From positions 1-26,669 of IMG/VR virus record IMGVR_UViG_3300030102_003652: a stretch of DNA of 26,669 bases. One strand, written 5' to 3'. Made by a program: the position numbers and the translations under genes. Below the pieces are notes generated by a model, which made no database searches, had not been told where the DNA came from, and saw nothing but the letters and a program-made list of their open reading frames with translations. Positions 2,026 through 20,102 of the stretch are shown here, piece by piece (position 1 is the first letter of the stretch; the number at the start of each line of letters is the position of its first letter). This stretch comes from a virus.

Positions 2026-2367
2026 TCAACGCACCTCCATCAGGACATCCACGCGAACCTCGTTCGTGCTGTTCTTGTCTATGGGTAGGAAGGTCGCTCG
2101 ATAGGCAGGGGTATCTAGTGCGGTGTCACCATGCAGGGCCACCTCCTTGATGCTCTGGGAGGATGTCTGTTGCGTGTCGAAGTTAGCGGAGATTGCGATA
2201 GTCCTGTCGTCTATCTTGGTGACTTGGGGGGTGACTGTAATCTGTGGCGTCCCCGCCCCCCCGTCCCTGCTCGACGCATCCCCTCCGTTGGAACCGAGGG
2301 TCATGCGAGTGACTAGACTAGAGAGATGATCGGTCAAAGCGGACTTCAAGGAATCTAGCACCGGCAT
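2026..2367 (-). CDS. Small tail-tip structural protein (113 aa)
   Basis: A short N-terminal helix (DSLKSALTDHLSSLVTRM) is followed by a Gly/Ser linker and a beta domain. That domain ends in IKEVALHGD...YRATFLPIDK...EVRVDVLMEVR. The pattern of an 'EVAL' strand, then 'ATFLPIDK', then a final 'VRVDV' strand resembles a small beta-sandwich that recurs in phage tail-collar and fibre proteins; this is resemblance only. Two adjacent ATGs are possible. The second, at 2367, is chosen because GAGGTG lies five bases upstream of it and only two bases from the first. It then overlaps the stop of the hub gene as TGATG, the same junction used by several neighbours. Confidence 0.65.
   Translation of the reverse strand: MPVLDSLKSALTDHLSSLVTRMTLGSNGGDASSRDGGAGTPQITVTPQVTKIDDRTIAISANFDTQQTSSQSIKEVALHGDTALDTPAYRATFLPIDKNSTNEVRVDVLMEVR
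2032..2038 (-). promoter_or_regulatory. Ribosome-binding site GGAGGTG of the candidate micro-ORF
   Basis: The minus strand reads GGAGGTG, then six bases, then the ATG at 2025. It lies within the last codons of the 113-aa gene (Met-Glu-Val), so it may also be coding coincidence. Confidence 0.5.
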
Positions 2368-5300
2368 CATTTCACCTCGTAATACAGGCTCTTGCTCGTG
2401 CCGATGGCCCGACCTCGCTTGTTCCCGTCACGCACACCGATTTTGCCCATCCCATTAGTGTGTTTCGCCCCTATTATGAATCCTGTATTGCTCACGCTAC
2501 GCACAAATACCTTGTGGACTGCAACCACATTGATACCGCTTGACAATGACACTTCTGCTACATCGACCACCTTGCCCGCCGCATCGTCTAGTGGACTGGC
2601 GTTACCTGATACTGCTTGTAGGTCAGACAGTATGCCCTCTATGCCCTTGTCATACTGTGCCACTATGAAGTCGCTAGTGGATTGGATGTAGTTGTGAGTC
2701 GCTTCAAAGACCATGTATTCTCCACGAAGACCATGCATGGGCAGGTCGATGTTGATTATCTCACCGGGTTGAACCATGGATGCTTTGATGGCTCCGCTAA
2801 TTGTTATGAGAGGTGCGCTGTTCTCGGATCGTGACAGTATGGACTTGGCGAGTTTCAATGCCTCGCTGTTGGTCTTGAGTCCGGGTATCTCCTGTCTCAA
2901 TGTCCTGACTAGGTTGCTACTTGCTCCCTTGCTTGCCTCCTTCTTCATCCTCTCCAAGTCCTTTACGACGACAAAGACCCTTTCGTTCTGGGCTAGTTGG
3001 TCGCCCACAATCACTATCTCATTCGGAGAGTCAAACATCTTGCTCGCAGTTACACTACGGATTGCACTACCCATGCCGAAGGTCATGCCCTTGTTATTGA
3101 ATACGTTCGATGAGTAAACCATGGCTCCGTTCTTCTCATTGATTAGTTGCTTGCCATCTATCTGACTTAGATTGCGTATGACCTCCATGACATTCAGGCC
3201 CTTCGTCTTGCGAGCGGTGAAGATAGCGGAGTGGTCGGACACGAGGCGGAGGGAGGGGTGGGCGTCGAGGGTGGATGAGATCTCCCTGTCCTTCCCTAGC
3301 AAGGCACTCGTTGGAGTCACGTTGAAGCCCGCTAGGTCTGAGCCGGAGTCATCCAGTAGCATCATCGCGGCGTCGCTAGTCCTGACGCCTATGTATCCCT
3401 GCTGTCCCATTAGGATCGGACCCTGTGACAGTCCGAAGTCTGTGAGGCTGTCAGCCTCTATGTTCCTGAACAGCAGGAAGGTGGATAACTCGTCCTTCTC
3501 CACACCGGCAATCCTCAGAGCCGTGTTCTTCTGGTCGAACAGGTAGGGTGGGAAGTCGGTGTCGGTGACTTCCTTGCCGTCGAATCTGATTGCGGTGATG
3601 GAGGGGGATGATGTCGATACGAGGGCCGAGGTCTTGCCGTTGTCTATGATTAGTGGCCTCTGGTTAATCATCATGAAGTCCGTCGGGTCGTACTCCAACA
3701 GGCCTCTGTAACCGAGAGTGGTCTGCTTGACCGCATCATTGGTGACATCGTACCTGTGCCATGTCGCGGACACTTGCTTGGCTAGGGTGATTGCATTGTC
3801 GATGTATGTCGGAGACACCAGATGAGGCGTGGTGAGCGATCGTATGTCGGAGATGGCAGATGGGCTAGTCACCGTCGTGTATCTGAGTATCTGTCCCGTC
3901 AAGTCCGATACCCCGGTGCTGTTGGTTATCCCTGTGAGTTTGTTCTTGCTCTTGCCTGTGTATGTCACCTTGCCCTTGCCCACTATGAACAGAGTGCCAG
4001 AGGCAGGTAACAGGGATGCGTCCTCAAGGAACACGTTATTGTTGGAACCCGCGTGTTTCGTGACTTTGAACTGTGGATACAGTCTCATGGTTGAATCCAT
4101 GTGGGTGTGCGTCACCGCATCTGGTGTAGTCTGCTTCACGAAGTCACCGCTAATTCCTGTCCCCTCTGCTCTGTACCTTGTCTCTGACTGGTGCAGGGAC
4201 TCGCCCCCGCCCGGATGCGTGGTCTGCGAGTACCGTGCTTCTATCTCTGGGTTGAACTCCCCATCGACAGTCTTGCGAACAGCATCTGATTTGAAGAATT
4301 GAAGCATAGATGCACTAGGTAGCAGGTGGAACACCGCATCGTGTTCATTGGCATCGGGATATGTGATTTGGAATATTCCCTCGGCGGTCGATATGAATTT
4401 CAAGTCACCTAGATTCCTCTCCATGTTTGCCTCAAAGACACCATACCTGTTGTCTCTAGTGAATGCCTGATGCTCAAGGTCAGCATCTCCGTATGATGAT
4501 CTAGCACCCATCAACCAACCGTCTTGCTGTATGTCAGAAGCAAAGCCGAAGAGTTTCAATGGGCGAACGGGTCTTACGAAGTAGTCAATGGACTTCCTTC
4601 TCTGGTTAGATGTGGTGGCGTTTCCATCCGTGCCAAACACGTCCGTGGTCAATGTTCCTTCCTCTGTCCTGTTGAGATACGTCTTCCTCAGAATGTACGT
4701 CCCACCCCATGGTGGCAAATCAGCAGAGCCACGGACAGCCCAATAGTCCATGCCATGAGTCTTGGATGCAATCAGCAAATCAGGATTGGTGGGTAACGAT
4801 ACAGTCGCTACCACGACAGCACTCGATCCTCCTTCATTGACAACGATGGTCGGCGTGGTTGTGTAGCCTGAACCACCCGCGCCTATGCTCACCGATACCA
4901 ACGGCCCTGTCGTTCCCAATACGGCTGTTGCCGTCTGTGCAGTACCTCCTCCTTTCAAGTGAGTCGTAGGCAGGGTTATCGCAGGGGCAGAGGTGTATCC
5001 GCTCCCTCCGTTGCTAATCGTCACGGCTGTTATAGTGCCTGTCTGAGTATGACTAGCCAACGAAGCCGTCAGCGATTCTCCTGTGCCTCCCGAAGCAGAG
5101 ACAGATGGCGCAGAGGTGTATCCATCTCCTTGATTATTGACTGTGACTGATACTATCTTACCATTGGATGTCGCTACGTTGATGTCTCCTAAAACTAGCG
5201 AAGTGTTAGCAAAGGTAATTTGGTTCGTACCACCATAAGTCTCTTGCCCATCCAATGCCAATGATACTGTCTTCGTTCCTCCTGATGTGAATCCGACTCC

Positions 5301-8300
5301 TGCGTTAGTTATGTTGTACCCGTTCGATCCTGAACGAATGTAGTATTTGCCACCTACTCTCTCGTATCCTAATTTCACAGTTGCGCTTGTAGCCCCTGAT
5401 TGCACTACTGTCATCACTAGGGTGCTGTCGCTCTTAGATTGCGTATTGGGATTGAGACTGTATAAGGTGGAACCACTTGTGAAAGTGATTGCACGGTTGT
5501 GAAGAGATGCGGAAGACATGGTGAAGAAATGGTTGCCCACTCCTCCACTCGTGTTCTTTCCGGTATAGTTCAGCACGGCAGATACGGGGGCATCATCGAG
5601 ATAAAGAGTACCTGAAGAGGGATAGGCTGAGATGTCTTCGTTCACAGCGATGTTTCCGTTGAATGACGCACCCAATCCACCAGAGGTATAAGTGATGTCG
5701 CCATCCAACGTAAGGCCATTGACCGCACCTGAACTCGATATGTCAATCTCAATCTGCTGACTCGTTGGTTGGCTGAATGCGGCTAATCCGTATCCTATGG
5801 TTCCGGTGGCGGTGGCCTGTATGGCATTGTGACTCGCGTTCGGTGCGCCTATGGTAAGAGAAACGGTACTGCCTGAGAAGCCAGATCCTCCGTTGCCAAT
5901 CGAGATGGTATTGCTGATTGGTCTGCCATCGTTGGTAATCGTGTATGTGGCAGTCGCGTTACCCGCAATCGTGCATGAGTGCGTCCCCACTCCGCTCACT
6001 AGGTATTGACCATTGGAGCCTGATACGGTAGCACTAGCGACGTTGGTGCTAGTGGTGTATGTCCCTGAGAATCCTGTCCCACCACCACCACCTGTGAATC
6101 CTAGTGTGCCGCTTGGGAATTGATAGCCAGAACCTGCATTGCTTATCGAGAGTGAAGTCACCGCCGCGCCACCATCGCCCTTGTCATCCTTAGTGTCTGG
6201 ACTCCATGTGGGTAGTGAGTATGGATTTGAGATGGTCTGACTCGTAGGGCTTCCGGGGTTTATGGTCATGTTATGCGTAGCGAACTTGGAGTTTGAGACA
6301 AAGGAGGGTAAGACGGGGAAGTGCTGACCGACAATCAAATCGCTATGCAGAGAAGCGGCTTTCGTTGATGTTATCACATACTCGATATTCTTGTTGTTCT
6401 GCCTCTCGTTCTCAGTCTGTATGACGAATCCTAGACGTGGTTCGGTTCTGGATTGCACTTGCCTGTGATCGCTTATCTCGGACAACGGGATGCCTAGTAT
6501 GTTGTTTATTGTGGAGTTAGTGTGAGTCCCTATTCCCCATCCAGTCGTAGGGTAGTGGATGTTTGCTGTGCTTGAGTGGTCGATGGCAGAGGCGTTGGTG
6601 TGTAGCGCATTCCCCTTGAGATGATGGAAGCCACCCGACACTCCAAACTGCGTGGAACTAACCGCAGACTCGGAATCACCTTGGGAGTATGAGTTTGAGC
6701 CTGTGTATTGAACTAGGTCGATGAAGGGGTCTGAGCCTTTGTTCATCGGTATTGCCTTCAAAGGCTCGTTTGCTCCTTTGTCCGGGTCGGTCTTAGGTTC
6801 CCACATCCCGGCAGGTAACGCTGTCGGTTTCACAAGACCCGCAGACTCGACGCCTAGCGTCAGTCCTATCCCTATTGGTTGCTCTGAGGTGAGTGGCTTA
6901 GTGTTGCTTCTTCTTATCACGCTTGAGAAGGGGGTTGATTCTGCCGTATGTGCAGTCGTAATCAGACCTATTGGCAGACTCCTTTCGACTCCGTTGTAGT
7001 TCGCAGGGAATCTCCAAGATGACCCGTAGGTGGTGGCATCGGGTATCTTGTTTACCGAGTCGTGAACTCCTCCATCGAATCTAGCACTACCGAAGACAGG
7101 TTGCAGGTTGGTATCTGCCTCAGTAGGATCTCCTGATAGCATATTCAGAGCATCAGAACTTGTTCGGAAGCCCCACGCTCTGACAGGTAGTCTTCTGCTG
7201 AAATCATATGCGACCATATTGTCCACGACAATCTCATATTCTGTGAACGATACGCTATCTGAATCAGTATCATATGATATGGTTGCAGATAGTTTCTCTG
7301 GTTGTATGCCATCCCCTATTCCCTCACCCCGACTATATCTTATGCGATCATATTCTTTGGTGAGTCTCAGAGTGCCTTGTGCTTCCCTATGTGTGGTGTG
7401 TCCCATATATACTGCGTTAGCAGAGCGCATACCATCCACATTCTTCTGTCCCGATGCGTTCAATGCATTGTATCCGAAGTTCTGCAACCATTGTGTGATG
7501 TATAGTCTCTCAAACGGCAGAGCGTTCTCTGCTTGTGCAGTAGTGGTGGGGTTGGAGTGGTTCCGTAGGTACAGACTTCTCGTGGGTGGGTAGTTTAGGG
7601 AACGAGGTGTCCCTGCCTCCCTGTATCTGAACGTCAAATAGTGTTCACGACTGGTTCCGAAGAGGGCCGGATGGCTGTATTCAGCAAGCCAATGACATAG
7701 GAATGCATCAGGGACGCACCCGGTCCCGGTGTTGTCCTTGTCAAGTAGTGCAAAATCACCAAAATCTGTGTTTATACCGGCGTTATCGTTGGCAGGGTTA
7801 GCCGTTCGTGCCGCCATGTTGAGATATTCTGGGTCGTGACAGAGCAGAGGAGGGACAGTTCCTAGTTCAGTACCAGAACGTGGTACTAAGACGCCTTCTT
7901 CTAATCCTAATGAGAAATAATCACTCGATCCTGTGTCGATTACAGGGGCAATTGGGCGTCCTGCGGAGAGTGTGTAGTCATCAATCAAAAACCCGTTCAG
8001 TATAATTTCACTAGACGTGTTATAGCGACTTCCACCAGTCAAAGCGTTGGCAAAAGTGAGCCTAGTTGGACCCGAAGTTGTGGCATTTTTGCTCGGTGCG
8101 GCCCTTCTGACGAGGTGTCCTGCACCGTCTGTCTCAGTCTGCTCCTGTCCCGGTGCTACGAGATAGTCCAAATCCGTTCTGGGAGTGACTCCTGAGTGAG
8201 CAGATTGCTTGATGTCTGGCAATCTGAAACCATCTAGTTCTGCTAATGGGAGGCCATCAGATGCAAAGGAGCCGGTTGCTCTGTACCCTGACTCCACTTT

Positions 8301-10487
8301 CGTGTCCAGAGAGTCCAACTCAAAGACCGTGGAGGAGTTTGATGACTTAGCAGAACCAAAGCCGTGGTGCTTGTGTTCTGTCTCTGCTTCAAACAGCAAC
8401 GAATACGAGGAGCCATGGCTTCTGTGAAGTTGCCTCCTCATTGCATTGGGTGTGCCTCTATGGGTCATTGGGGTAACAAACGAGTGGCCCTGCCTTGCGA
8501 AGCGTATCCTGTGGTGGGGGTGGGCGTATCCGGTGTAGGTGGTGAACGACCCGCTAACGCTTGTCTGGTTGGTCTGCGTCAGCAAGGAGCCGCGCTCTGC
8601 GTGGTCGGTTATCCTATGCGCCGCGAATAAGCGTGTTGTGCCGCTCGGAACGGCTCCGGGGGTAGTGTGGGGGGTAAGGCCCTGTTTCGTCGTTAAATCG
8701 GGATGCAGGAGCCTCTGTATGTGGAAGATTAGCATACGGTCGTGGGTGTCGAATTGAGAAACACCACCAGAGGCCTCCGCCACGCCCGGTTTACGGGGGT
8801 CTGGAGCCGTCAGCCCTCCCAACCCCCAAGTGAGGTTAGAGAAGGCCTGTACGCGGTCGTGTGCGCTTCTCACGAATATCTCTCCGGGTATCTCTGATGC
8901 ATCGGGGAGTTGAATCTGCAAGTTCGGAGTCAGTTTACCGTCTGTGGTTGAAGGCCCGGTAATCTCCTCGCCAGTCACCGGATCTGTTCTAGTATTCTGC
9001 ACGGAGTAGTCTTTGATGACCACTCCAAGGGGAGAACCACCCGTCAGAGTAAGCCTGTTACCTGCGTCATCGACAGTCTCAATGTCTTCAAACACTCTCT
9101 CCTCGTTACTAATTTGCAAACCCGTGACTCTCGCGGTGTTGATTGTCTTCGATGAGAATATGGGACGTGGCACATTCTTGGAACCATCACCATCTATTCC
9201 CTTCGCCTCAAATGATGTCCCATATGTTATGTTAGTGAGATTATCACGACTTGAAGAGAGCATATTATTGGAATCGTTTGTAGCCGTCGCCCTATATCCT
9301 GACTTTAAGTGGAACATATCTCCCGACGTGGCAGGGAAGTCTGTCCCATATTCCATCTCTGCTAGTTTGATATTGTTCGATCCGGTAGTATCTGTCTCCA
9401 CCTTTGTCACATGGTACAGCGATGGTTCTGTGACGGTGTAGTCTGGAGGGGGGATGTCAGGTAGGTTGCAAGAGTTCAGTCCCTCTATGCTGAATCTAAC
9501 GTATCCGTGTGCTGTTGAGTGCGAAGAGGCCGTTGAACCACGAGACTCGTGGTTGGTGGCAGGGATGCCCATGTTGCCGCCATCCATCGGTTTTGCTGTC
9601 AGATACCATGTTGGGATGCCCTGACCCAGACCTTGGACAATCGGCCCCGCGTTAGCCGCCGCCCAATACCCTCCTGCTGAGTTGGGCGTGGTGTTCTCCC
9701 AAGTCAGAACCATCGTGTGCTTGGCGGGTTCTCCGGGTATCGAGACTGTTGCTCCAGAGAGTTCGTCAGGGTAGGAACCCCCGCCGGAGATGTGGGTGGA
9801 TACTTGTGTTATCTGTGCGGCTAGGTCAGTCACCGTGAAGTCAGCGTAGGACTTCTGGTCAAGGGGGCTTCCATTGTAGTTCCTGCCACCTCTCCTGAAT
9901 GCGGATACTGCGGTGTAAGCGACAGACAGGTTGGTGTGATTGCTATCTGTGTAGGTCAGGGTTCCGCTTTGGGGCATATCTGAGGGGAATCCGTTTCGGA
10001 ATGCACCATCCAACTCCACACGCAACGTAGTCGCATTGAATGCCAGTTCCGCAGATCCTGAGTAGGATGGCTTGCCGGACATCCTGACATACCTAGCCCG
10101 CAGGTATCTGGTCTGGCTATGCTCTCCTACTTGCTTGACTCGACGACTGTTTATCTTGGCCGCAATGAGCCTAGTGGCTTCCTCCGTTCCTAAGTTGTAG
10201 GTCTTGCTGTTAGTATCATCCGTAGCGGCTTGCTTCAAATCCACAACAATCACGTTGTTAGCCTCTGAGGGGGCGGAGGCGGTGGCGATGGGGGTGCGGA
10301 CGATGACAGTCAGTCCCTGCCCCCATGTGTTGCTGTTCGTGCCGTATTGCCAATCAGTCACGTCATCGTCATACTCCGTATCGGGGTAGGTGATGTGCAT
10401 GGCGAAGAAGCCGCTTGCGGGATAGCCACTAGCCGACCCCATAGGGACTACCTTGGCGGGATAGAGTTGCTTCTGATTTACCGCCAT
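2367..10487 (-). CDS. Giant tail hub / tip protein with gpD-like C-terminal part (2706 aa)
   Basis: This very large beta-rich protein has no signal peptide or membrane segment. The N-terminal half carries no domain I can name, but it has a His-rich stretch at about residues 650-712. Residues about 1440-1890 hold six GSGYTSxP-like beta repeats. The last 300 residues or so resemble the baseplate hub family (phage gpD / T4 gp27-like, Tal in siphoviruses). A helix and strand segment GLNVMEVIRNLSQIDGK lies near 2430, and near 2555-2600 comes PLITISGAI...VQPGEIINIDL...GLRGEYMVFEATH, the usual 'origin on axis, ring-forming' beta pattern. The gene follows the 2,203-aa tip gene, as a hub should. Start: ATG 10487 shares its A with the upstream TGA (TGATG); a GTG at 10493 is possible and would add two residues. 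Hub identity is inferred from pattern and order. Confidence 0.7.
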   Translation of the reverse strand: MAVNQKQLYPAKVVPMGSASGYPASGFFAMHITYPDTEYDDDVTDWQYGTNSNTWGQGLTVIVRTPIATASAPSEANNVIVVDLKQAATDDTNSKTYNLGTEEATRLIAAKINSRRVKQVGEHSQTRYLRARYVRMSGKPSYSGSAELAFNATTLRVELDGAFRNGFPSDMPQSGTLTYTDSNHTNLSVAYTAVSAFRRGGRNYNGSPLDQKSYADFTVTDLAAQITQVSTHISGGGSYPDELSGATVSIPGEPAKHTMVLTWENTTPNSAGGYWAAANAGPIVQGLGQGIPTWYLTAKPMDGGNMGIPATNHESRGSTASSHSTAHGYVRFSIEGLNSCNLPDIPPPDYTVTEPSLYHVTKVETDTTGSNNIKLAEMEYGTDFPATSGDMFHLKSGYRATATNDSNNMLSSSRDNLTNITYGTSFEAKGIDGDGSKNVPRPIFSSKTINTARVTGLQISNEERVFEDIETVDDAGNRLTLTGGSPLGVVIKDYSVQNTRTDPVTGEEITGPSTTDGKLTPNLQIQLPDASEIPGEIFVRSAHDRVQAFSNLTWGLGGLTAPDPRKPGVAEASGGVSQFDTHDRMLIFHIQRLLHPDLTTKQGLTPHTTPGAVPSGTTRLFAAHRITDHAERGSLLTQTNQTSVSGSFTTYTGYAHPHHRIRFARQGHSFVTPMTHRGTPNAMRRQLHRSHGSSYSLLFEAETEHKHHGFGSAKSSNSSTVFELDSLDTKVESGYRATGSFASDGLPLAELDGFRLPDIKQSAHSGVTPRTDLDYLVAPGQEQTETDGAGHLVRRAAPSKNATTSGPTRLTFANALTGGSRYNTSSEIILNGFLIDDYTLSAGRPIAPVIDTGSSDYFSLGLEEGVLVPRSGTELGTVPPLLCHDPEYLNMAARTANPANDNAGINTDFGDFALLDKDNTGTGCVPDAFLCHWLAEYSHPALFGTSREHYLTFRYREAGTPRSLNYPPTRSLYLRNHSNPTTTAQAENALPFERLYITQWLQNFGYNALNASGQKNVDGMRSANAVYMGHTTHREAQGTLRLTKEYDRIRYSRGEGIGDGIQPEKLSATISYDTDSDSVSFTEYEIVVDNMVAYDFSRRLPVRAWGFRTSSDALNMLSGDPTEADTNLQPVFGSARFDGGVHDSVNKIPDATTYGSSWRFPANYNGVERSLPIGLITTAHTAESTPFSSVIRRSNTKPLTSEQPIGIGLTLGVESAGLVKPTALPAGMWEPKTDPDKGANEPLKAIPMNKGSDPFIDLVQYTGSNSYSQGDSESAVSSTQFGVSGGFHHLKGNALHTNASAIDHSSTANIHYPTTGWGIGTHTNSTINNILGIPLSEISDHRQVQSRTEPRLGFVIQTENERQNNKNIEYVITSTKAASLHSDLIVGQHFPVLPSFVSNSKFATHNMTINPGSPTSQTISNPYSLPTWSPDTKDDKGDGGAAVTSLSISNAGSGYQFPSGTLGFTGGGGGTGFSGTYTTSTNVASATVSGSNGQYLVSGVGTHSCTIAGNATATYTITNDGRPISNTISIGNGGSGFSGSTVSLTIGAPNASHNAIQATATGTIGYGLAAFSQPTSQQIEIDISSSGAVNGLTLDGDITYTSGGLGASFNGNIAVNEDISAYPSSGTLYLDDAPVSAVLNYTGKNTSGGVGNHFFTMSSASLHNRAITFTSGSTLYSLNPNTQSKSDSTLVMTVVQSGATSATVKLGYERVGGKYYIRSGSNGYNITNAGVGFTSGGTKTVSLALDGQETYGGTNQITFANTSLVLGDINVATSNGKIVSVTVNNQGDGYTSAPSVSASGGTGESLTASLASHTQTGTITAVTISNGGSGYTSAPAITLPTTHLKGGGTAQTATAVLGTTGPLVSVSIGAGGSGYTTTPTIVVNEGGSSAVVVATVSLPTNPDLLIASKTHGMDYWAVRGSADLPPWGGTYILRKTYLNRTEEGTLTTDVFGTDGNATTSNQRRKSIDYFVRPVRPLKLFGFASDIQQDGWLMGARSSYGDADLEHQAFTRDNRYGVFEANMERNLGDLKFISTAEGIFQITYPDANEHDAVFHLLPSASMLQFFKSDAVRKTVDGEFNPEIEARYSQTTHPGGGESLHQSETRYRAEGTGISGDFVKQTTPDAVTHTHMDSTMRLYPQFKVTKHAGSNNNVFLEDASLLPASGTLFIVGKGKVTYTGKSKNKLTGITNSTGVSDLTGQILRYTTVTSPSAISDIRSLTTPHLVSPTYIDNAITLAKQVSATWHRYDVTNDAVKQTTLGYRGLLEYDPTDFMMINQRPLIIDNGKTSALVSTSSPSITAIRFDGKEVTDTDFPPYLFDQKNTALRIAGVEKDELSTFLLFRNIEADSLTDFGLSQGPILMGQQGYIGVRTSDAAMMLLDDSGSDLAGFNVTPTSALLGKDREISSTLDAHPSLRLVSDHSAIFTARKTKGLNVMEVIRNLSQIDGKQLINEKNGAMVYSSNVFNNKGMTFGMGSAIRSVTASKMFDSPNEIVIVGDQLAQNERVFVVVKDLERMKKEASKGASSNLVRTLRQEIPGLKTNSEALKLAKSILSRSENSAPLITISGAIKASMVQPGEIINIDLPMHGLRGEYMVFEATHNYIQSTSDFIVAQYDKGIEGILSDLQAVSGNASPLDDAAGKVVDVAEVSLSSGINVVAVHKVFVRSVSNTGFIIGAKHTNGMGKIGVRDGNKRGRAIGTSKSLYYEVK
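2373..2378 (-). promoter_or_regulatory. Ribosome-binding site GAGGTG deciding the start of the 113-aa gene
   Basis: The minus strand reads GAGGTG at the end of the hub gene. It is five bases from the ATG at 2367 and only two from the ATG at 2370, so the second ATG is the better start. Confidence 0.6.
4830..6165 (-). repeat. Six diverged GSGYTSxP-type beta repeats inside the giant hub protein
   Basis: In the protein the repeats read SISNAGSGYQFPSG, SIGNGGSGFSGS, NITNAGVGFTSGG, VNNQGDGYTSAP, ISNGGSGYTSAP and IGAGGSGYTTTP. They are separated by variable strands, and the last three are the closest to one another. Repeats of this type are familiar from large virion proteins of marine phages. They are diverged at DNA level, so they are old coding repeats and not a recent tandem duplication. 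Confidence 0.75.
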
Positions 10488-13400
10488 CACCACACCGCCC
10501 TTGCCGCGTATATCTCCTCACACTCGCTTTGGGTCAAAGCGTAATTGAATACCGCTACTTCTGATAGCCCACAGTTGAACAGATACAGATTCTCGCCCGA
10601 CGCTATACCTCCTCCTGTGTAAGAGGCACTACTATCCACCGTTCCACAAACACCTGCGTGATCTCCTTGTGAAGAACTCGTAACATCGGTGTAGTGGCCC
10701 GTGAATAACTCATCGACATCAACAGCAAAGATTGTCTCAAGATTCTTTATTGTTGAGAGGCCGATGAAACACATTCCTGTCTTGACTGTGCCTCCCAAAA
10801 ACTCTGGAAGGTTAGCCGTGTTATTGTGTTGAGCAGTCACAGTTTCTAGGCTTCTAACATTGCCCGTGTTGAATACTCCACTTCCCAAGTTAATCATGCT
10901 AGTAGTATCTTGGTTGGCATTCTGGTTGTAATTGTACCCTCTAAGACGCTCCGAGTTTCCCGCTCTCATTGTGATGGTAGTCCCACTCTTAGTCACTATG
11001 ATGTTAGTCCATGCGTTGTCGGTTATTTTAATTCCGCCATCGTTCACCTTATTCCTTGCAATCTTGTGATTCGATCCATCGTGGTAGGCCATAGCAAACG
11101 AGATGGTCTGCTCAGAGGAAGAGGTACGACTGCCAAACAGAAACAGCCCCCAATTCCTATTGTTCTTATCACGGCCACTTATTATCGGCCCTGATGCGAT
11201 ACGGTTGTTATCTGCAAATGATGTCTCACTTGGCTTGAACCACGCGCTGATAGACCAGTCATCAGTTATATCGAACTCACTCATGGGGCCGTACTCTAAT
11301 AGGGTGGAAGAACCGTTCCAAAAGTGAGTTGCGATTGACTGTCCACCTCTGAATTTGTATCCCTTCGATGTAGTATCAACAGAATATGCAGGGCCATTTA
11401 CAGAGGTCATAGTTCCTACATTTGTATTTCCTCTCACTACTGTAATCTCAACACCGGCATTGACAGCAGAAGCACCTGATACGCCAGTCAGCGTACCCGC
11501 GTTTCCTACTCCCGCAGTCAGTCCCGTAAACGTGAAAGCATCATCATTGTGAAGTGCCTTGAATGTGGACAAAGCAGAAGGGCTTCCGGGCAGAATGTCA
11601 GTATTATCGGTGTTTCCGGTATTCGTGACTGCCATGCTAGTTCCTGATGTGTAGTTTGTTGAGGGGGTGAGCATAGCATACCCTCTTGTCAATCTGAGTT
11701 TCGATCCGTATAGTGCCTCAGTAATAACATCGCTTTGGCTGTAATCTCCATCATTGATAGTGCCGTCATTCAATCGTGCATAGAGAAGGCATCTTTGCAG
11801 GGCGGTTCCATCCGTATTCAATCTGTGATGGACTCCTTGCAGGGTGTTCTCATTGATTGTGTCGTTGTTGGTTATGTTGGTGAAATCTAATACTGCTGAT
11901 GCCGTGCTGACTTCGTGGAGATTCTGGTATCCTGAGAATCCAGTTGGCCCTTTGGAGTAATGGTGAGGATAGTCATCGCTGTAATCGTTGGCCGTTCCAT
12001 CGCTGATGTCGAAGGTCACACCTGTGTGTCCCCCACCGAAATAGACTATGCCCTCTGCGTCTGTTCTAGGGTAAAGAAGTTCGACTTCGATTCCACCTAT
12101 GGCCGCACCATCGCTGTCATAGAATGTCTCGATGAAATCAGTCATGGTATCACGAGGGGTGATGTTGCGAATGAAGAAGCAATTGGTCATGACATCCGTT
12201 GAAGTAGCGGTTCTTTGTTGGTCTATGCTTTCAAACTCGGCAATGAGCGAACCTACTCTGAGTATTCCTTTACTCAGCGTTCCTGTTGCTCTTGTAACTC
12301 TCTTAAGATAATCTTCGACGTTTGTGCTTACTGCGAGATGTGCCATTGATGTCTCAGTATTGAACGCCGCAAGCGTAGGGTCAGTCATATTGTTTGTTAC
12401 TGAGCCACCTGCGAGTGTCTGCCCTGCGGGCGATGCAACGGTCGTGACTTTGAACGGACCACCAAGTCCGTTATACGATCGGAGAGCGTTTGTTGAGTCT
12501 AACGTCGAACCGGATGGTGCGCCCCTGAATGTCGATATGGGGACGAAAGTCTCGCCATCAGCCCCTATTGGCATCGGAGCGGGTATGGTGTTTGGCTGAT
12601 ACAACCTACTGTTGCTTGCAAGAAGTCCTCCATAACCAATCACTTGTGCGGGCTTGTAAGTGTAAGGCGTCTTGTTACTCAGTCGGACATTGAAGTTCCG
12701 GCCTGATGCGCCCGGTACTGTGCTATGTATCACAATTGACTTACCGGATTCACCATCCCTGCTCTCGGTATCTGTCCCGATGAATGCTCTGACATATCCC
12801 ATGTGTGTCCCCGTATCTTTGTTACTTGCAATTAAAGGGAAGAGAGGGGGTGGATCGAAGGCACTACCCCCATTGGCATTCTTGGCTTGCGGGTGTCCTG
12901 CCATGTTGATTCTCCTGATGACCTCATCCACGCAGAGATTGAAGTCTCCTTTCGTGTTTGCAATATCGTTGAAATCAATCTCAAGAGGTCGAACATATTC
13001 AAGTGCCGAAGAGTCGGACTTCTTACCTTTGAGAGACAGGTAACTGGTTTGGCATACGATGGGATGAAGTGATTGTCTGTCGTTTGCAGACTCGTTGTCC
13101 TCGTTCGGATCCCACTCAAACGCCTCCATGTTCGGGCCATCGAGTATCAAATATCGAGCAGAGTTGTTCGGGTCTGCGTGAACTGCGTCTGCGTTCAAAC
13201 CTATCACGGTCTTTACTGCGGTGGCAATCTCTGCGGCCAACAGGTTGGGCGTGTTGGCTGTGAAGTTTGATATGTCTTCGATAGAGATGATGTAGTCTCT
13301 TGTGTCGTTAGGGACAGAAGTAGCACCATCTAGGATAATGTACCCTCCTAGAGTCACAGTCATTCCTGCGTCTATGTTGCCGAGATTACTGCTTTCGTTG

Positions 13401-16400
13401 CTAATAGTGTTCAGGGGGTTCCACGTTTGAGATGTTGTTATAGTAAGGGATGTGCCGTTGTCAGGGTCAGGGATTGCGGCTCTTGCCATGATTCCATAAC
13501 CATCATTCAGAACCCCTTCCCCAATGGTCACGAAGAAATTAGTCGCACAGTTTGCTTCTAGTCCTCTTTCTCCTGTTGAGGGCAAGAAGGCCGAAGCATC
13601 ATCCACATTGAGTGTGCCACTACTGTATGATGTCACTACTGCTTGAACAGATGGTCTTTGACATCTTATGAGCCACCGACCGTTACCTTCGGCCCATGCC
13701 TCCAACTGATCTGTGACCTCAAAAGACGACACAGGACTGTTCTGACCCCAATCGACTGCGAACCTAGACTCATTCATCCTCATCTCAGGCCTGTTCGTAG
13801 CCATGGTGCAATCGACAGTCATCTTGAATTTCTTGTTCGCCGGTATGGGAGTTCTAGCATCGTTGTCTGCTGAGAGCAGACCATCAACATCGAAGAACAT
13901 AGATGGGAACAAGGGTATCTCCGTCAATGCCCTAGTGGATGCATAGTAAGTCGAAGCCTGTTTGTCGTTTCTTACTGATGCATTCCCTGTCCCCACGATT
14001 TTGTCCTTCCATCCGGGCAAGAACGGGTGTTCTGTGAATACGGGCTGTATATCTATGCCACCTTGACCCAACCCTCCCAGAGTCATGGTCACAGTAGGAG
14101 TCCCCATGTCTCCTATCTCTTTGACGGGCGAACCCTGTCCTAGATTGAAGTCCCTTTGTGACCTGTGGTCAAGGATGTCCATCAGAACAGAACGTCCGTT
14201 TATCACGGTGCTTGACGACTGTCCCTGACCTGCTGTTGGACTTATCTCCTCGATCCTACCACGCATCAGGGTCTTTTCCAAAGTGACCAAGGCGGAGTCT
14301 CTCGGAGACTTTGCATCGTCTGCTACATCATTGAGCATGGATGTCCTGAGTTTGTTCGTAGGGTGAACTAGGACTAGGTTCTCATTGCCTGTCAATTCAT
14401 TGTCGATGACATCGAAACCACATAGGTTGCTACGCCTCAATGATGAGGGAGTTATTTGGGATGAGGTGTGATTTTTATTGTTTGAAGCCCCTCCAGATGC
14501 GAAGTATAGTGTGTGGAAGTCAGAGTTACTGGTGCTGTCTGGAGTGTTGATTGATGCTACTGCTTGTGGTACACCATACCCTTGGACCCCTGTGCCTACT
14601 GAATACACGGTATCCTCGATGTTGATGAATGGCGAGGGAGTGATGTCCCCTGTCGGGTTCGATGAGAGTGTGCCTGATGCGGGCTTGTCATTGAACGTGG
14701 TGGTCGGTAGGCTGACCAAGCCACCCGGAGCGATGACATTCAAAAGTATGGCATCACCGTCTGTTTGACTGCCCGAATAAGGCCGTCTGAGCCAATCTGA
14801 GACAGTCCGACTACCGAAGACAGCACTACCACTAGGGACAGTCTTAGACACGACCAGATAGGCCGCATTTCCCGTGGCGTGGTCGGGCCGGAACTTGGTA
14901 CTCACGCCTCCAGATGCTAGGCTCGTACCCGCAACTATCTCTCCGGTTAGGTCAATTGCATTGTAATGGACTAGAATCTCATTCGGCCCTCCTGCATTCT
15001 TTAGCAATTGGGGAGACTCTATGACTGCAATCCTAGACTCCTTTTCAGGGGACAGGTGTCTGACATAAGCATCGTTGGTCGGTACGCCATTAGACAGAGA
15101 TGCGGTATGCTCTGTGTCTAACCCCTTCAACATGAATGGCTTGGGGTCGGAAACTGCGATTGCGACAATCTCATCTCTCGTTGATGCATACAGATTCTGC
15201 CCGATGCTATTGTCATAGAAACCAATTCCGCTCTCAGTCACTATCCTATTGAATACGTTCGTGCTACTGCTTCCTGAGTCTGTGCCAGAAACCGTCTTTG
15301 CTTTGTTGATTACCTTGGACACGGAGCCATGGTAAACCGGCTCTGTAACGATGACTTGCTGATTCTCAGAGACAAGCGAAGAGACTGAAACTTCGTCTGC
15401 CACATACTTGAACGTGTTAGCGATTCCTTGGACGGTCTGCTTGACGATCTGCTCATCTGGAGTGGGTAGCATACGCAGGAAGAAATCACCTTCAACGAGG
15501 CTGTACGATGTTGAAGCACCCATGGCAGGGTATGTCGTTGCCGGGTCGTATAACGTGTCCGCATCGGTCGATCCGGTGCTTCTGCTCTTGAGGGAAATGA
15601 AGTACGCATCGTTGGAGTATCCAGAGGCGTCAGAGAATCTCTGTCCTTGGACGAATTGGGCCAAGGTGAATGTATCTGTCCTCCTCTTTCTTTGTCCGTT
15701 CACCGAAGCGTCGGTGTTCTCGTTGCCCGGATCGATTAGAAGGTCTGCATTTCCCAGAGTGAACCATACGGGCGTGTTGTCCGTATGAGCGAACAAGTGT
15801 CCCTGTGTGGTTGGTAGGTTGTCCACAGTCCCATTGGCGGCATCGTTGGCTAGTATCACAGATGTGCAGTTTATCCGGTTGTTAGCAAAGTCCAGACCCG
15901 TTATCCTGACTCTCTCGACCCTATTGATTGATGGGTTCAATGTCGATGTGGAGGATGTGGATAGCACGTTGCCATCAGCGAACCTGACCTTTTGGGAATC
16001 GGGTGGTGTGACCGTGCCTGTCGTCGGGCTTGTCGCTGAGTGATTAATCACCGCATTGAGAACCGTGGACTTGACGGTTGAGAAGTATGCGTCATTGGTC
16101 AAATCCAATGTCGATGTGTAGTATGATTGGTCTTTGACCTCCTCTAGTGGTATGCCCTGCGTCAATGCCGCTAGTTTCTCAAGGGCTGTGTACCTGTCTG
16201 TCACACTACCCGGATTGGCAGGGTAGTCTCGTATCTTGAAGTGAGTGGTGTTGAAGTCGTAGCCTATCCCAACCATGGGTATCTCAAGCAGACCATCATG
16301 GGTGTTCGGCCCATCCCTTCCTTGCATGGACGTACCGGGCCTTGCATGATCGAAGAAGTGAACATCCGGTATATCGTACTCATCATCGAACGTCCAGAGT

Positions 16401-17098
16401 CCGAAGGTGTTGTCTATCTTGGCGAGGGGTTGGAGGGTGGGGGGGTGGATGCCTTGGCAGATTCTCACGCTCTCTATCATGCCACGGAACTCGCCGCCCT
16501 GTCCGCCGATGAAGAGGTCGGAGGATGCCTCCCGCATCAGCCCCCCGTCCCCACCGAGGTTCAACTCTGCAACTATGTCTCCATTCACGAACAGGCGTAT
16601 CTCGTCCTGCGAGTATTGGGCGGTGACTAGGACTAGCCCCTGCGTCCCCACCGTCATCTCGTGTGGCCTGTGTGCGTTGGAGGATGATGAATAGACTCCT
16701 GAGTTACTGCTCATGTTTACTGGTGCGTTGAAACTCGTCGTCAATGAGTATGGCCTGTCCTCCGTATGAACTTCAAAGACTATCTTGCCCTCAGAGAACG
16801 GATTGCCGTACTTCAAGGTGAATGCATTGTCCTTGTGGACTATCACACCACCGTAGTCTGGCACGATGTACGCATCGATCGTGAATGCGCCTCTCAGAGA
16901 GTTGAGCGGGTTCGACATGGAGTCCTGATGCATCCTGCCAATCTTGGTGGCGTGACTCTTCGTGGCATTGACAGTCCCTGCGAACTCATTGGGACGCAAA
17001 TCGACTCCAGACTCACGAAACTTGCCTGTTGGGACTACCAGACCATCAGTAAGACCATTGAATCGTAGTGCCTTGCCATGTAGTCTGACAATCCCCAT
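10487..17098 (-). CDS. Giant tail-tip protein with LamG-like domains at both ends (2203 aa)
   Basis: Residues about 9-215 look like a concanavalin/LamG sandwich: ALRFNGLTDGLVVP, AFTIDAYIVPDYGG, IRLFVNGDIVAEL, LFIGGQGGEFRGMIESVRI. A second one fills about 1910-2203, with DDWSISAWFKPSE, NNRNWGLFLFGS, WTNIIVTKSGTTITMRAG and the closing SEVAVFNYALTQSECEEIY, a typical LamG_3 ending. Between them lies a long beta-rich region without a recognised family, with recurring NDAYF / NDAYV phrases near residues 340-520 and 690. LamG domains bind glycans or proteins, so a receptor-contact role at the tail tip is a reasonable inference. The gene sits between the distal-tail candidate and the hub. Its ATG follows two bases after the upstream TGA, with GGTGGG eight bases before it, and its own TGA overlaps the hub start. 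Confidence 0.7.
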   Translation of the reverse strand: MGIVRLHGKALRFNGLTDGLVVPTGKFRESGVDLRPNEFAGTVNATKSHATKIGRMHQDSMSNPLNSLRGAFTIDAYIVPDYGGVIVHKDNAFTLKYGNPFSEGKIVFEVHTEDRPYSLTTSFNAPVNMSSNSGVYSSSSNAHRPHEMTVGTQGLVLVTAQYSQDEIRLFVNGDIVAELNLGGDGGLMREASSDLFIGGQGGEFRGMIESVRICQGIHPPTLQPLAKIDNTFGLWTFDDEYDIPDVHFFDHARPGTSMQGRDGPNTHDGLLEIPMVGIGYDFNTTHFKIRDYPANPGSVTDRYTALEKLAALTQGIPLEEVKDQSYYTSTLDLTNDAYFSTVKSTVLNAVINHSATSPTTGTVTPPDSQKVRFADGNVLSTSSTSTLNPSINRVERVRITGLDFANNRINCTSVILANDAANGTVDNLPTTQGHLFAHTDNTPVWFTLGNADLLIDPGNENTDASVNGQRKRRTDTFTLAQFVQGQRFSDASGYSNDAYFISLKSRSTGSTDADTLYDPATTYPAMGASTSYSLVEGDFFLRMLPTPDEQIVKQTVQGIANTFKYVADEVSVSSLVSENQQVIVTEPVYHGSVSKVINKAKTVSGTDSGSSSTNVFNRIVTESGIGFYDNSIGQNLYASTRDEIVAIAVSDPKPFMLKGLDTEHTASLSNGVPTNDAYVRHLSPEKESRIAVIESPQLLKNAGGPNEILVHYNAIDLTGEIVAGTSLASGGVSTKFRPDHATGNAAYLVVSKTVPSGSAVFGSRTVSDWLRRPYSGSQTDGDAILLNVIAPGGLVSLPTTTFNDKPASGTLSSNPTGDITPSPFINIEDTVYSVGTGVQGYGVPQAVASINTPDSTSNSDFHTLYFASGGASNNKNHTSSQITPSSLRRSNLCGFDVIDNELTGNENLVLVHPTNKLRTSMLNDVADDAKSPRDSALVTLEKTLMRGRIEEISPTAGQGQSSSTVINGRSVLMDILDHRSQRDFNLGQGSPVKEIGDMGTPTVTMTLGGLGQGGIDIQPVFTEHPFLPGWKDKIVGTGNASVRNDKQASTYYASTRALTEIPLFPSMFFDVDGLLSADNDARTPIPANKKFKMTVDCTMATNRPEMRMNESRFAVDWGQNSPVSSFEVTDQLEAWAEGNGRWLIRCQRPSVQAVVTSYSSGTLNVDDASAFLPSTGERGLEANCATNFFVTIGEGVLNDGYGIMARAAIPDPDNGTSLTITTSQTWNPLNTISNESSNLGNIDAGMTVTLGGYIILDGATSVPNDTRDYIISIEDISNFTANTPNLLAAEIATAVKTVIGLNADAVHADPNNSARYLILDGPNMEAFEWDPNEDNESANDRQSLHPIVCQTSYLSLKGKKSDSSALEYVRPLEIDFNDIANTKGDFNLCVDEVIRRINMAGHPQAKNANGGSAFDPPPLFPLIASNKDTGTHMGYVRAFIGTDTESRDGESGKSIVIHSTVPGASGRNFNVRLSNKTPYTYKPAQVIGYGGLLASNSRLYQPNTIPAPMPIGADGETFVPISTFRGAPSGSTLDSTNALRSYNGLGGPFKVTTVASPAGQTLAGGSVTNNMTDPTLAAFNTETSMAHLAVSTNVEDYLKRVTRATGTLSKGILRVGSLIAEFESIDQQRTATSTDVMTNCFFIRNITPRDTMTDFIETFYDSDGAAIGGIEVELLYPRTDAEGIVYFGGGHTGVTFDISDGTANDYSDDYPHHYSKGPTGFSGYQNLHEVSTASAVLDFTNITNNDTINENTLQGVHHRLNTDGTALQRCLLYARLNDGTINDGDYSQSDVITEALYGSKLRLTRGYAMLTPSTNYTSGTSMAVTNTGNTDNTDILPGSPSALSTFKALHNDDAFTFTGLTAGVGNAGTLTGVSGASAVNAGVEITVVRGNTNVGTMTSVNGPAYSVDTTSKGYKFRGGQSIATHFWNGSSTLLEYGPMSEFDITDDWSISAWFKPSETSFADNNRIASGPIISGRDKNNRNWGLFLFGSRTSSSEQTISFAMAYHDGSNHKIARNKVNDGGIKITDNAWTNIIVTKSGTTITMRAGNSERLRGYNYNQNANQDTTSMINLGSGVFNTGNVRSLETVTAQHNNTANLPEFLGGTVKTGMCFIGLSTIKNLETIFAVDVDELFTGHYTDVTSSSQGDHAGVCGTVDSSASYTGGGIASGENLYLFNCGLSEVAVFNYALTQSECEEIYAARAVW

Positions 17099-17099
17099 A

Positions 17100-18329
17100 T
17101 CATATACCCACCAGTTGCTCGACTGCCGCGAACTCTAACTCGTAGCCCCAATAACCATCACCTGCGTTAAAGGTCGGATTGTAACTCTTGAGAACGGCAG
17201 GGATAGCAACTCCCTGCTCCAAGAATGGGTTTGGTCGGATAGTCTCGTTGTTCACTACGGTAGTGGGGTCGAAGGCCCGGTTGTTCTCCTCAGAGGAGAA
17301 GTCGGTTCCTACTCCAGATGGAATCAGGTATTGCCTTAGCACCTTGCTTCCCGAATTGGACGATGCTAGTGACTCATATGGTATTCTGACTCCAACCACA
17401 TACTTCTTCACCGTCTTCATCTGATCGACGCGGAGGAAGCGGGATGCATCCTTGGAAGAGACACCATCTGGTAGGTCTATGACGGAACCTGCTATCGCGT
17501 TTGGAGATACCAAAGCACCTCCTGCGCTCATGTTAGCGAGATTGAGCAAATCCTGTACCTTGTCCTCCATGGTCTTCTTCTGACTCGATGCTCCGCCAGA
17601 CATACTGGTGACTAGGAACTGATTGCTCCACGTCGCTCCTGCATCGTCCTTTGACACGGTTACTACATGGTCGCCATTAGCCCCTTCGACCGTGTTCTTG
17701 ATTGTGATTCGCTCGCCGTTGAAACCAGAGCCGCCCTGTGCATCTTGGGATAGTGTCTCCATCTGACCAGATGCCTGTGTGACGGTCAATATGGATGAGC
17801 AACCAGTAGTAGCGGTATCGACCTTGACCGATGCGCTGTTGATTGCACTAGCGATCGTATCGGCTAGGCTATCGGAGGAGGTCGTCGAGGAGATGTTAAT
17901 CACGATGATGCTGTTGGTGGCTACTGTGGATGAGCCAGAACCGTTCTTCAATTGCAATGTGATGTCCTCTCCCAAGTTAGCATTGATTTGCCCGGTCGTC
18001 TGGAATCTTATGCTAACGCCATCCAAGTCAGACTTGACCGCGTTCCAACTCGCATACAACTCGTACCACGTCGCTTGAAGGGACTGACTGCCGTTGATTG
18101 AGGTGTCAATCGTCATGGATGAACCGGCTCCTCCTGTCGCGTCTGTGTCGTCCGTGAATATCCCGCTAACGGCTATGCCCACTTGCGACTGGTTCAAGTC
18201 CAGACCGACACGAGTGTTGATGATGGCAATGGGGTAGTGAGTCACTTCTCTCTGTACGTTGAAGGTTATCCTATCAGCATCCAACTCCGTGACGGTGCTA
18301 TCCCTGTGTATCATCTGAATCCTCGGCAT
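17100..18329 (-). CDS. Candidate distal tail (Dit-position) protein (409 aa)
   Basis: The N-terminus (MPRIQMIHRDSTVTELDADR, then ITFNVQREVTHYPIAIINTR) is a beta domain of the kind that opens phage tail-tip proteins, continuing VGLDLNQSQ..IAVSGIFTDD. A Ser/Thr/Gly-rich middle domain (about 110-240) is followed by a mixed C-terminal domain ending GYWGYELEFAAVEQLVGI. No family is recognised with certainty. Its place directly after the tape measure is that of the distal tail protein in siphoviruses, which joins the tube to the hub; the functional call rests mainly on this. The start ATG 18329 overlaps the tape-measure TGA as TGATG and has GGGAGGGG (18336-18343) six bases upstream, a strong site. 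Confidence 0.55.
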   Translation of the reverse strand: MPRIQMIHRDSTVTELDADRITFNVQREVTHYPIAIINTRVGLDLNQSQVGIAVSGIFTDDTDATGGAGSSMTIDTSINGSQSLQATWYELYASWNAVKSDLDGVSIRFQTTGQINANLGEDITLQLKNGSGSSTVATNSIIVINISSTTSSDSLADTIASAINSASVKVDTATTGCSSILTVTQASGQMETLSQDAQGGSGFNGERITIKNTVEGANGDHVVTVSKDDAGATWSNQFLVTSMSGGASSQKKTMEDKVQDLLNLANMSAGGALVSPNAIAGSVIDLPDGVSSKDASRFLRVDQMKTVKKYVVGVRIPYESLASSNSGSKVLRQYLIPSGVGTDFSSEENNRAFDPTTVVNNETIRPNPFLEQGVAIPAVLKSYNPTFNAGDGYWGYELEFAAVEQLVGI

Positions 18330-19732
18330 CAGATACCCCTCCCGTACCCGCCAGACCTAGACCTCGACCGGAATGCCTTCTGGACTTCCATGCTTACTGC
18401 TCTGGCTATCGCGTTGGGATCTCCGCCCGTGCTATTGACCGTTATATTAGCGGTGAATCCACCCCCCATCCCCTCTGCTCCTTGCAGAGTCACGGGTATC
18501 GTCCTGCCGTCTGGGAGTGGTACGACGGCCTCTGTTCCGTGCAGGGCTACGGCGTAACCAGAGTCAGGGCCTCTTGCTATGCCTCCCTGAGCAAACGGAT
18601 TCAGAGAAGCCAAGCCACCCGTTATATCTCCTAAGTCAGGCACTATGCTTCCCAAGTCTATGTTCTTCAACTCATCAATCTTGTCTAGTATGTAGTCGAT
18701 TGGAGTCATCAAGAAATCGAACATTCCACTAAGGGCCTTGGAAACTCCATCCTTGAAATCAACGGCAGAGTCATACATATTACCAAACTTTTCGCTGAAA
18801 AATTCCGCTATCTCCCCTATACCTCCGGTGGCTATGAATTGAATTCCTTGGAAGTAAAGTTGAATTCCTTTTAGAACGAAGGTTGCTATGCCATAGATAC
18901 CATTTAGTACGACACCAATGACCGTGCCAATGCCTTTCACGATTGTATTCAACATGGTTCCCGATGTGGTTGCTTCCTTCACGATATTAGCAATCAGCAC
19001 TATGATTGCCCCTATGACTATGCCCGCAGTCTCGGCTAACATTCCGAATGTCACAATCAACTCGTTGAAGTATTCAATGAAACCACTTGCCGTGAGGAAT
19101 GCGAACACCCCATTGATTATGTTCGTGAATGTCTCACCGAGGTTGCCTCCTTCGATACCGAGGATTGCAAAGGCCTCGTTCACGGAAGCGAAGATTGCGC
19201 TTACGCCTGTGCCTAGACCATCAAAGGCAGTCATCAAGGAATCTAGTAGTCCAGTCTGTTGAAGATTTGCTACGAAGACGCTCCATGCCACTCCTAGAGC
19301 ATCAAAGGTCACAACCACGCCATTGACAAAGGCATCAAAGGTCGCTTTGAGGTCGGTTACTGTGATGCCTGTGCCTTGTAAGAGGCCGTCGAATATGGTG
19401 AAGGCATCACCTGCCCCCCCTATTTTGTCACCCATGGCAACGAAAGCAAGACCAACTAGGGTAATGACGCCGATGAGGAAGAATAGGTTGCCACGAATAG
19501 CATCAAATAATCCTTTGAATAGAGTTATTGGTTTTAGGATTGCTTTGAACACATCCATTAGTGTCTTGAGGTTTGAAATTAAGTTACGATATAAGTCATA
19601 AAACGGACCAAGAGTCTTGTAAAGTGTCTTATTCACTATCACTTGCCCTGTGGTAATCGGGATGCTTGCTCGCCCTGATTGGTTTAACCTGAAAATTGAT
19701 TGTTCTAGTTCAGCAATCGTTCCCTTTGCCAT
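18329..19732 (-). CDS. Tail tape measure protein (467 aa)
   Basis: The tape measure sets tail length and is threaded through the tube. Evidence: a hydrophobic segment at about 82-100 (NLFFLIGVITLVGLAFVAMG); further long hydrophobic helices around 225-310 (AGIVIGAIIVLIANIVKEA, VIGVVLNGIYGIATFVLKG); and the C-terminal signature GGIARGPDSGYAVALHGTEA followed by VVPLPDGRTIPV, which is characteristic of this family. The extreme C-terminus is basic and Gly/Ser-rich. It follows the G/GT chaperone genes, as expected. Start: ATG 19732 (MAKGTIAELEQ) lies two bases after the stop of the T frame; an upstream in-frame GTG at 19753 would add seven residues but has no ribosome-binding site. At about 467 residues it is short, implying a tail of roughly 70 nm by the usual 0.15 nm per residue rule. 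Confidence 0.9.
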   Translation of the reverse strand: MAKGTIAELEQSIFRLNQSGRASIPITTGQVIVNKTLYKTLGPFYDLYRNLISNLKTLMDVFKAILKPITLFKGLFDAIRGNLFFLIGVITLVGLAFVAMGDKIGGAGDAFTIFDGLLQGTGITVTDLKATFDAFVNGVVVTFDALGVAWSVFVANLQQTGLLDSLMTAFDGLGTGVSAIFASVNEAFAILGIEGGNLGETFTNIINGVFAFLTASGFIEYFNELIVTFGMLAETAGIVIGAIIVLIANIVKEATTSGTMLNTIVKGIGTVIGVVLNGIYGIATFVLKGIQLYFQGIQFIATGGIGEIAEFFSEKFGNMYDSAVDFKDGVSKALSGMFDFLMTPIDYILDKIDELKNIDLGSIVPDLGDITGGLASLNPFAQGGIARGPDSGYAVALHGTEAVVPLPDGRTIPVTLQGAEGMGGGFTANITVNSTGGDPNAIARAVSMEVQKAFRSRSRSGGYGRGI

Positions 19733-19733
19733 A

Positions 19734-20102
19734 CTATTCGCCGTCCTGCTCACTTAATTGTTGGTTGAATCTCTCAAAGAAGTCGTCAAGGTTGGCACTA
19801 TCACTTGTAGTCCGTAAGGGCCTCCCCTTATTTCGGTTTCCTCCGGCGTTATAACGCTCGGCTTCTTTACGAGCCTTCTTCATTTCCTCTGTCTGTTGCT
19901 CTTGATTTACCCTCACCATGAGGTAGTCTAGGTAAACCCGATCGACTGGTTGGTCGTCCCACATATGCGGAGGGCAATTGAAATGGCTACCTAGAACGAA
20001 TGTTATGGTCTGGAAGGAAAGCATTGCACTCTGTTCTGGAGTGAACGGATTGATTAGTCCGCCTGACGTGATGAATGACCTGAGATCAGAGTGCGTTATT
20101 CC
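19734..20102 (-). CDS. T part of the G-T tail assembly chaperone, made by -1 frameshift
   Basis: This frame has no good start of its own: its first ATG (20024, MLSFQTITF) has no ribosome-binding site. The frame is open upstream through GITHSDLRSF, ITSGGLINPF and TPEQSA, up to the slippery heptamer CCCTTTG at 20102-20108 in gene G. A -1 shift there joins 118 residues of G to 122 residues of T, giving about 240 aa, close to the lambda G/G-T layout (140 and 279 aa). The T part has a hydrophobic and aromatic first half (SFQTITFVLGSHFNCPPHMW) and a charged helix (QTEEMKKARKEAERY) with an acidic end. In lambda the T extension recruits tube subunits while G binds the tape measure. It ends at TAG 19734, two bases before the tape-measure ATG. 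Confidence 0.8.
   Translation of the reverse strand, partial: GITHSDLRSFITSGGLINPFTPEQSAMLSFQTITFVLGSHFNCPPHMWDDQPVDRVYLDYLMVRVNQEQQTEEMKKARKEAERYNAGGNRNKGRPLRTTSDSANLDDFFERFNQQLSEQDGE

Follow-up and report, generated by a model that had tools for sequence, protein, structure and literature searches.

The 26.7-kb virus record analysed here (26,669 nucleotides; hereafter the window) encoded a 2,706-aa protein whose likely role is that of the tail-tip baseplate hub in a tailed marine virus. The virus most likely infects archaea, and its tail is probably non-contractile; N-terminal arms or a collar would be fused ahead of the hub and would probably present glycan-binding modules. Few components of tailed viruses, contractile injection systems and gene transfer agents are as conserved as the tail hub, and in textbook cases the domains for receptor binding or lysis follow it. 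A conserved family in which this layout is inverted would represent another wiring of host recognition to tube opening.

A single, conserved reading frame

The originally predicted gene was a real ORF and lay on the minus strand (Table 1), with an alternative GTG start 6 bases upstream that would extend the product to 2,708 aa. Its start overlapped the 3' end of the upstream 2,203-aa ORF, and its end overlapped the next ORF. When IMG/VR was scanned three times with the C terminus of the protein as query, ~60 contigs with relatives at 41-100% identity were collected, and a fourth scan reached relatives down to 38% identity. N-complete relatives each possessed one open frame of ~2,200-3,215 aa, the sole exception being L066 (1,544 aa), in which the frame opened late. 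Some ~60 other contigs of marine origin kept the layout of a long part with the hub in last position, as did each of the 35 sequence clusters of full length (near-duplicates removed); in every cluster the whole N-terminal part was present and collinear. Values of dN/dS were ~0.06-0.10 over residues 1-1430, 0.077 over the hub (calculated only where synonymous sites were unsaturated) and 0.23-0.29 in the repeat module, above those of both scaffold and hub; as judged from these substitution ratios, the entire ORF is under purifying selection. An artefactual fusion of two genes, or an artefact of assembly or frameshifting, was ruled out by the single frames in relatives together with dN/dS.

Table 1. 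Features of the 2,706-aa protein and of neighbouring tail genes, with residue numbers of the protein and nucleotide positions in the window.
Feature	Residues	Position	Strand	Basis or remark
Whole gene, 2,706-aa putative tail-tip hub protein		2367..10487	minus	Single open frame, likewise in N-complete relatives
Conserved N-terminal scaffold	1-1430	6198..10487	minus	Collinear in 35 clusters, 44-86% identity
Insertion site	after ~387	9327..9329	minus	275-610 extra residues in most distant clade
Insertion site	after ~1237	6777..6779	minus	245-255 extra residues in 11 relatives; LamG lectin, e.g. in L057
Optional module, GSGYT-type repeats and copy of small DAS-P-SG motif	~1440-1899	4791..6170	minus	Absent from many relatives
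Conserved linker	1900-2138	4074..4790	minus	Conserved in relatives
Small beta domain (DASLLPASGTLF...TYTG)	2139-2206	3870..4073	minus	pLDDT ~80-91
Predicted tail hub domains	~2240-2620	2628..3770	minus	Boundaries inferred from secondary structure of the model
Segment aligned to Pfam YqbQ (model positions 161-283 of 294, the C-terminal hub domains)	2472-2601	2685..3074	minus	HMM
Conserved C-terminal tail ending in G-SKS-V pattern	2626-2706	2370..2612	minus	~80 residues behind hub
Adjacent 2,203-aa protein, LamG lectin domains near both ends		10487..17098	minus	Domain matches
409-aa protein		17100..18329	minus	Distal-tail/connector role inferred from position
474-aa tape measure protein		18329..19753	minus	Upstream of hub gene

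Predicted hub fold at the C terminus

An AF2 model of residues 2136-2706, built as a monomer from a 49-row alignment, had a mean pLDDT of 63.8 and a pTM of 0.36, with pLDDT mostly 55-80 in the hub region; an earlier model of residues 1900-2706 from 27 sequences (pLDDT 43.6) was too poor for use. When the later model was searched against the PDB with Foldseek, 538 matches were returned, and every match from rank 1 to rank 36 was a tail hub or a tail-tip protein containing one, including NMB1110 (the best match, E 1.1e-9), a hub-length chain of the HFTV1 tail (rank 2, E 1.7e-9), MuSo2, Mu gp44, JBD30, lambda J, T5 pb3 and T4 gp27 (E 1.2e-3). Rank 37 was a VgrG-type T6SS protein, a gp27 homologue similar to parts of the T4 hub, and the first unrelated match appeared only at E 0.11. 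The alignments spanned 376-425 columns against complete single-chain hubs of 311-331 residues. TM-scores were low and rmsd high, which together with the moderate quality of the model makes the relative placement of domains unreliable; the gp27/gp44-type hub fold, which comprises tube domains I and III together with domains II and IV, was matched as a whole, its split into these four domains not being readable at pLDDT 63.8. A fold search of a viral library likewise retrieved tail, tip and hub proteins, including the haloviral 'Late control GPD'. Ahead of the hub lay a small beta domain, whose motif occurred in a second copy within the repeat module.

The best matches in the viral library (BFVD A0A516LI86_2, A0A516LT38_3 and A0A516M0A8_2) carried the suffixes 2 or 3. 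As such suffixes look like later fragments of long proteins, this suggests that the public set of viral proteins contains further giants whose hub comes late.

Sequence comparisons pointed in the same direction. The sole Pfam match of the window protein was the hub family YqbQ (PF24032), with an E-value of 0.04 for the full-length protein and 0.003 for its C-terminal part. Scanned singly, 35 of 49 members matched the YqbQ HMM (best E 3.8e-5), and on whole contigs this gene alone was matched, near its C terminus, in 10 of 12 records (4e-7 to 3e-4). Since the scores (13.8-19 bits for the window protein and up to 25.1 bits for relatives) lie under the curated Pfam cut-off of 27 bits, the protein is not filed as a YqbQ member. 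A tblastn search of 50,697 phage records with the C-terminal region of a divergent relative gave eight weak matches; the six that covered the hub were all haloarchaeal hubs (HRTV-4, HRTV-29 and HFTV1; E 0.1-0.8), and the remaining two were cyanophage records aligned to another part. Profile-profile comparison matched the C-terminal part of the hub to the HFTV1/haloviral hub family (E 4e-5 over 116 columns), and a second stretch, collinear with the HFTV1 domain II region, was insignificant (P 0.36). Hubs of the YqbQ type from C. difficile phages were too alike for an informative profile comparison (Neff 1), and searches of PDB sequences with the single protein and with profiles gave no match.

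The motifs PLITISGAI, GEIINIDL and GEYMVFEATH, from which a hub had been proposed, were present in that order near the C terminus. The original prediction had placed the hub in the C-terminal 300 residues; the hub fold was upheld by all 36 of the leading PDB matches, the YqbQ HMM and the HFTV1-family profile, and its span was revised to ~390 residues (~2240-2625), followed by the 80-residue conserved tail. A hub fold in another gene of the cluster, which the same prediction had named as the finding that would speak against it, was detected neither by the hub profile nor by the YqbQ model or profile comparison: the hub profile revealed no second copy across the loci and the window, the YqbQ model never matched more than one place per contig, and the best value for the N-terminal scaffold and the other window proteins against hub profiles was 0.058, the other window proteins being single sequences and hence a weaker control.

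An N-terminal scaffold with exchangeable inserts

The part preceding the hub had been described as very large and beta-rich. A long part does precede the hub, and its organization proved to be that of one conserved scaffold with optional inserts and not simply of beta domains. No relative of scaffold residues 1-1430 was found in Pfam, the PDB or annotated phages, and no internal repeats were found within them; the 1,430-residue scaffold is an untouched target for structural work.

Besides the two insertion sites after residues ~387 and ~1237, the GSGYT module formed a third, being present in the clade of the window and missing from L009, L010 and the distant clades. Laminin_G_3 lectin matches were found in the N-terminal region of 8 of 29 relatives (best 2.7e-10), and on whole contigs of relatives the open frames that contained LamG matches were 2,508-2,539 aa long, which corresponds to the hub gene in size. 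By coordinate arithmetic, the LamG match on the L057 contig corresponded to residues ~1308-1467, which fits a ~250-aa insert after residue 1237. No recognised lectin domain was found within the hub gene of the window itself. Because the scaffold takes exchangeable inserts (LamG lectin, GSGYT repeats and others), it probably displays glycan-binding modules, and the three insertion sites are probable swap points for host-range modules.

PHROG matches at residues 1755-1897 carried the labels 'head closure' and 'virion structural protein', which we rejected because GSGYT repeats are common to many cyanophage structural proteins. Among close relatives, a large portion of the ~450-residue repeat module separated L009 and L022 from L018 and L026, being carried by one pair and missing from the other, reflecting either gain or loss of the module or collapse of the repeats during assembly.

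Comparison with known hubs

Siphovirus Tal proteins (NF5 and similar), lambda gpJ and T5 pb3 share with the window protein the hub fold and a place at the tail tip, and their genes likewise follow that of the tape measure. In these proteins the hub comes early and lytic or fibre domains follow, whereas the window hub lies at ~2240-2620 of 2,706 residues; no lytic domain was found in the window hub protein. Mu gp44, the MuSo2 43-kDa protein, NMB1110 and YqbQ hubs also have the hub fold in common, with the weak YqbQ HMM match falling at the C-terminal hub domains, but these proteins are 310-380 aa long or hub-first, and none has a 2,200-residue N-terminal part. In phiC2, for example, the YqbQ-like hub occupies residues 32-324 and is followed by NlpC/P60. 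The best relatives by sequence and profile were the HFTV1 gp44 hub and its relatives (HRTV-4, HRTV-29, HRTV-28 and BLv36), which have the hub fold in common and whose gene, like that of the window, is downstream of the tape measure gene. The HFTV1 protein differs in that it is 954 aa long and hub-first: the hub lies within its first ~450 residues (tblastn match ~305-451), with a carbohydrate-binding domain behind it, the reverse of the order in the window. Each HFTV1 hub subunit holds tail fibres non-covalently at its N terminus, and both components are shed when the DNA is ejected (PMC12494034).

A parallel in domain order is the g15 megatron of RcGTA, in which iris, adhesin-like and peripheral domains (1-744) are followed by a gp27-like central domain (745-984) and then by a fibre-binding domain (PMC7296036); the megatron of roseophage R4C is built like that of RcGTA (PMC10276861). 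Like the window protein, these are large tail-tip proteins with adhesin-like or peripheral domains ahead of a gp27-like domain, and the megatron baseplate is trimeric (PMC7296036, PMC10276861). They differ in being 1,304-1,447 aa long, in possessing the central hub domain only, in having a ~320-residue fibre-binding domain after it and in relying on a separate hub protein to complete the ring, whereas the window protein has ~80 residues behind the hub and a second hub protein was not found in the window. A late hub domain is therefore not unheard of. The reversed order that had been predicted holds against Tal and the haloviral hubs, but with the partial precedent of the RcGTA and R4C megatrons (PMC7296036, PMC10276861) the protein is better regarded as an extreme variant. 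The window protein differs from the megatrons in having what appears to be a complete hub, preceded by ~2,200 residues and followed by just ~80, and in that a search for a second hub protein found none.

Proposed role and alternative readings

On the strength of the model, residues ~2240-2620 would fold as a gp27/gp44-type hub; by analogy with its family, three copies would assemble, seal the end of the tube and attach beneath the distal-tail ring. The ~2,200 residues ahead of the hub, on its N-terminal side, may be the arms or collar of the tail tip, and the scaffold would probably expose glycan-binding modules towards the surface of the host and relay the binding signal to the hub. By comparison with HFTV1, an N-terminal fusion would place the extra mass at the fibre-docking site, and the covalent extension may replace or supplement the fibre docked there non-covalently.

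A division of the hub as in the megatrons, with the C-terminal region contributing part of the ring and another protein of the cluster providing the attachment domain, seems unlikely to us. It has in its favour that the gp27-type central domain of RcGTA and R4C comes after ~745-900 residues, the rest of the ring being supplied by a separate hub protein, and that the strongest sequence signal in the window protein lay mainly over the C-terminal hub domains. The length of the Foldseek alignments relative to complete hubs nevertheless suggests that a whole hub is present, the very weak stretch collinear with the HFTV1 domain II region argues the same way, no hub-like protein was found elsewhere in the window, and RcGTA chain 6tba_8A ranked just 29th among the fold matches. 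That the C-terminal model already appears to span the whole hub also bears on a more improbable arrangement, in which the first hub domain would sit at the N terminus of the protein and the ~2,000 residues between would be a giant insert, comparable to the smaller inserts of the lambda J type. The first ~130 residues are indeed very well conserved, but the N-terminal profile matched neither the HFTV1 hub profile (P 0.7) nor the hub profile of the window itself.

We consider it highly improbable that the protein is some other structural component, such as a fibre or wedge, whose C terminus resembles a hub by chance. While no single HMM match rose above the curated cut-off, chance would have to account for hubs among 36 of 36 top PDB fold matches, for single matches to YqbQ in 35 of 49 members and for a gene position downstream of the tape measure. 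The preferred reading remains a hub with its large extension ahead of it. The broader proposal, on which we are evenly divided, is that of a lineage of marine archaeal tailed viruses with an inverted hub, in which a ~2,200-residue scaffold ahead of a complete hub would act as a platform for exchangeable receptor-binding modules and would unite recognition and tube closure in one covalent trimer.

Virus lineage and host

An archaeal-type (group II) chaperonin gene was taken as a hint to the host. Among long relatives (70-108 kb), 9 of 13 carried a Cpn60/TCP1 chaperonin gene, and the one chaperonin tested was closest to archaeal thermosomes; the gene was absent from the window itself. The chaperonin-bearing relatives were G001-G004, G006, G010-G012 and G014 (e.g. 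G002:C1:5547-6980). Family B DNA polymerase (PF00136) was not found in contigs of 8 relatives, nor a sliding clamp/PCNA (PF02747) in those of 13, though these contigs may be incomplete. Magrovirales encode both a family B DNA polymerase and a sliding clamp (PMC10768690), and a classical magrovirus was rejected because the relatives were without PolB and PCNA. No hub relative was found in GTDB genomes, and a scan of GTDB for the chaperonin gave no clue to the host. Taken together, kinship with haloviral hubs, the chaperonins of relatives and the absence of PolB and PCNA point to marine archaea, perhaps Poseidoniales, as probable hosts, that of the window virus being assigned by extension. A candidate order for these viruses is Adrikavirales (87 kb, replication unknown; PMC13108676). 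The hub family offers an entry point to the viruses that infect marine archaea, hosts that are both abundant and uncultured.

Tail operon

Read leftwards, the operon began with a fibre-like protein (929 aa), a fibre-assembly-like protein (124 aa), an 89-aa protein and a tube-like protein (725 aa; Pfam Phage_tube_2, slightly under the cut-off), continued with a SAP-domain protein (138 aa), an assembly-chaperone-like protein (119 aa), a 96-aa protein, the tape measure (474 aa) and proteins of 409 and 2,203 aa, and ended with the hub gene and genes for 114, 362 and 193 aa. The tape measure was found in all 9 long contigs tested, upstream of the hub gene by coordinates. No family match was found for the 409-aa protein. 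The 2,203-aa neighbour, in which no recognised domain was found apart from LamG, is a candidate tail fibre or adhesin partner of the hub.

Two smaller features of the operon were also observed. The SAP-domain protein (20436-20852; Pfam E 1.8e-7), which carries a DNA-binding motif, was encoded between the tube-like and assembly-chaperone-like genes. The consecutive small ORFs of 119 and 96 aa (19734-20455) occupied the position of tail assembly chaperones and, by analogy with lambda G/GT, might be linked by programmed frameshifting.
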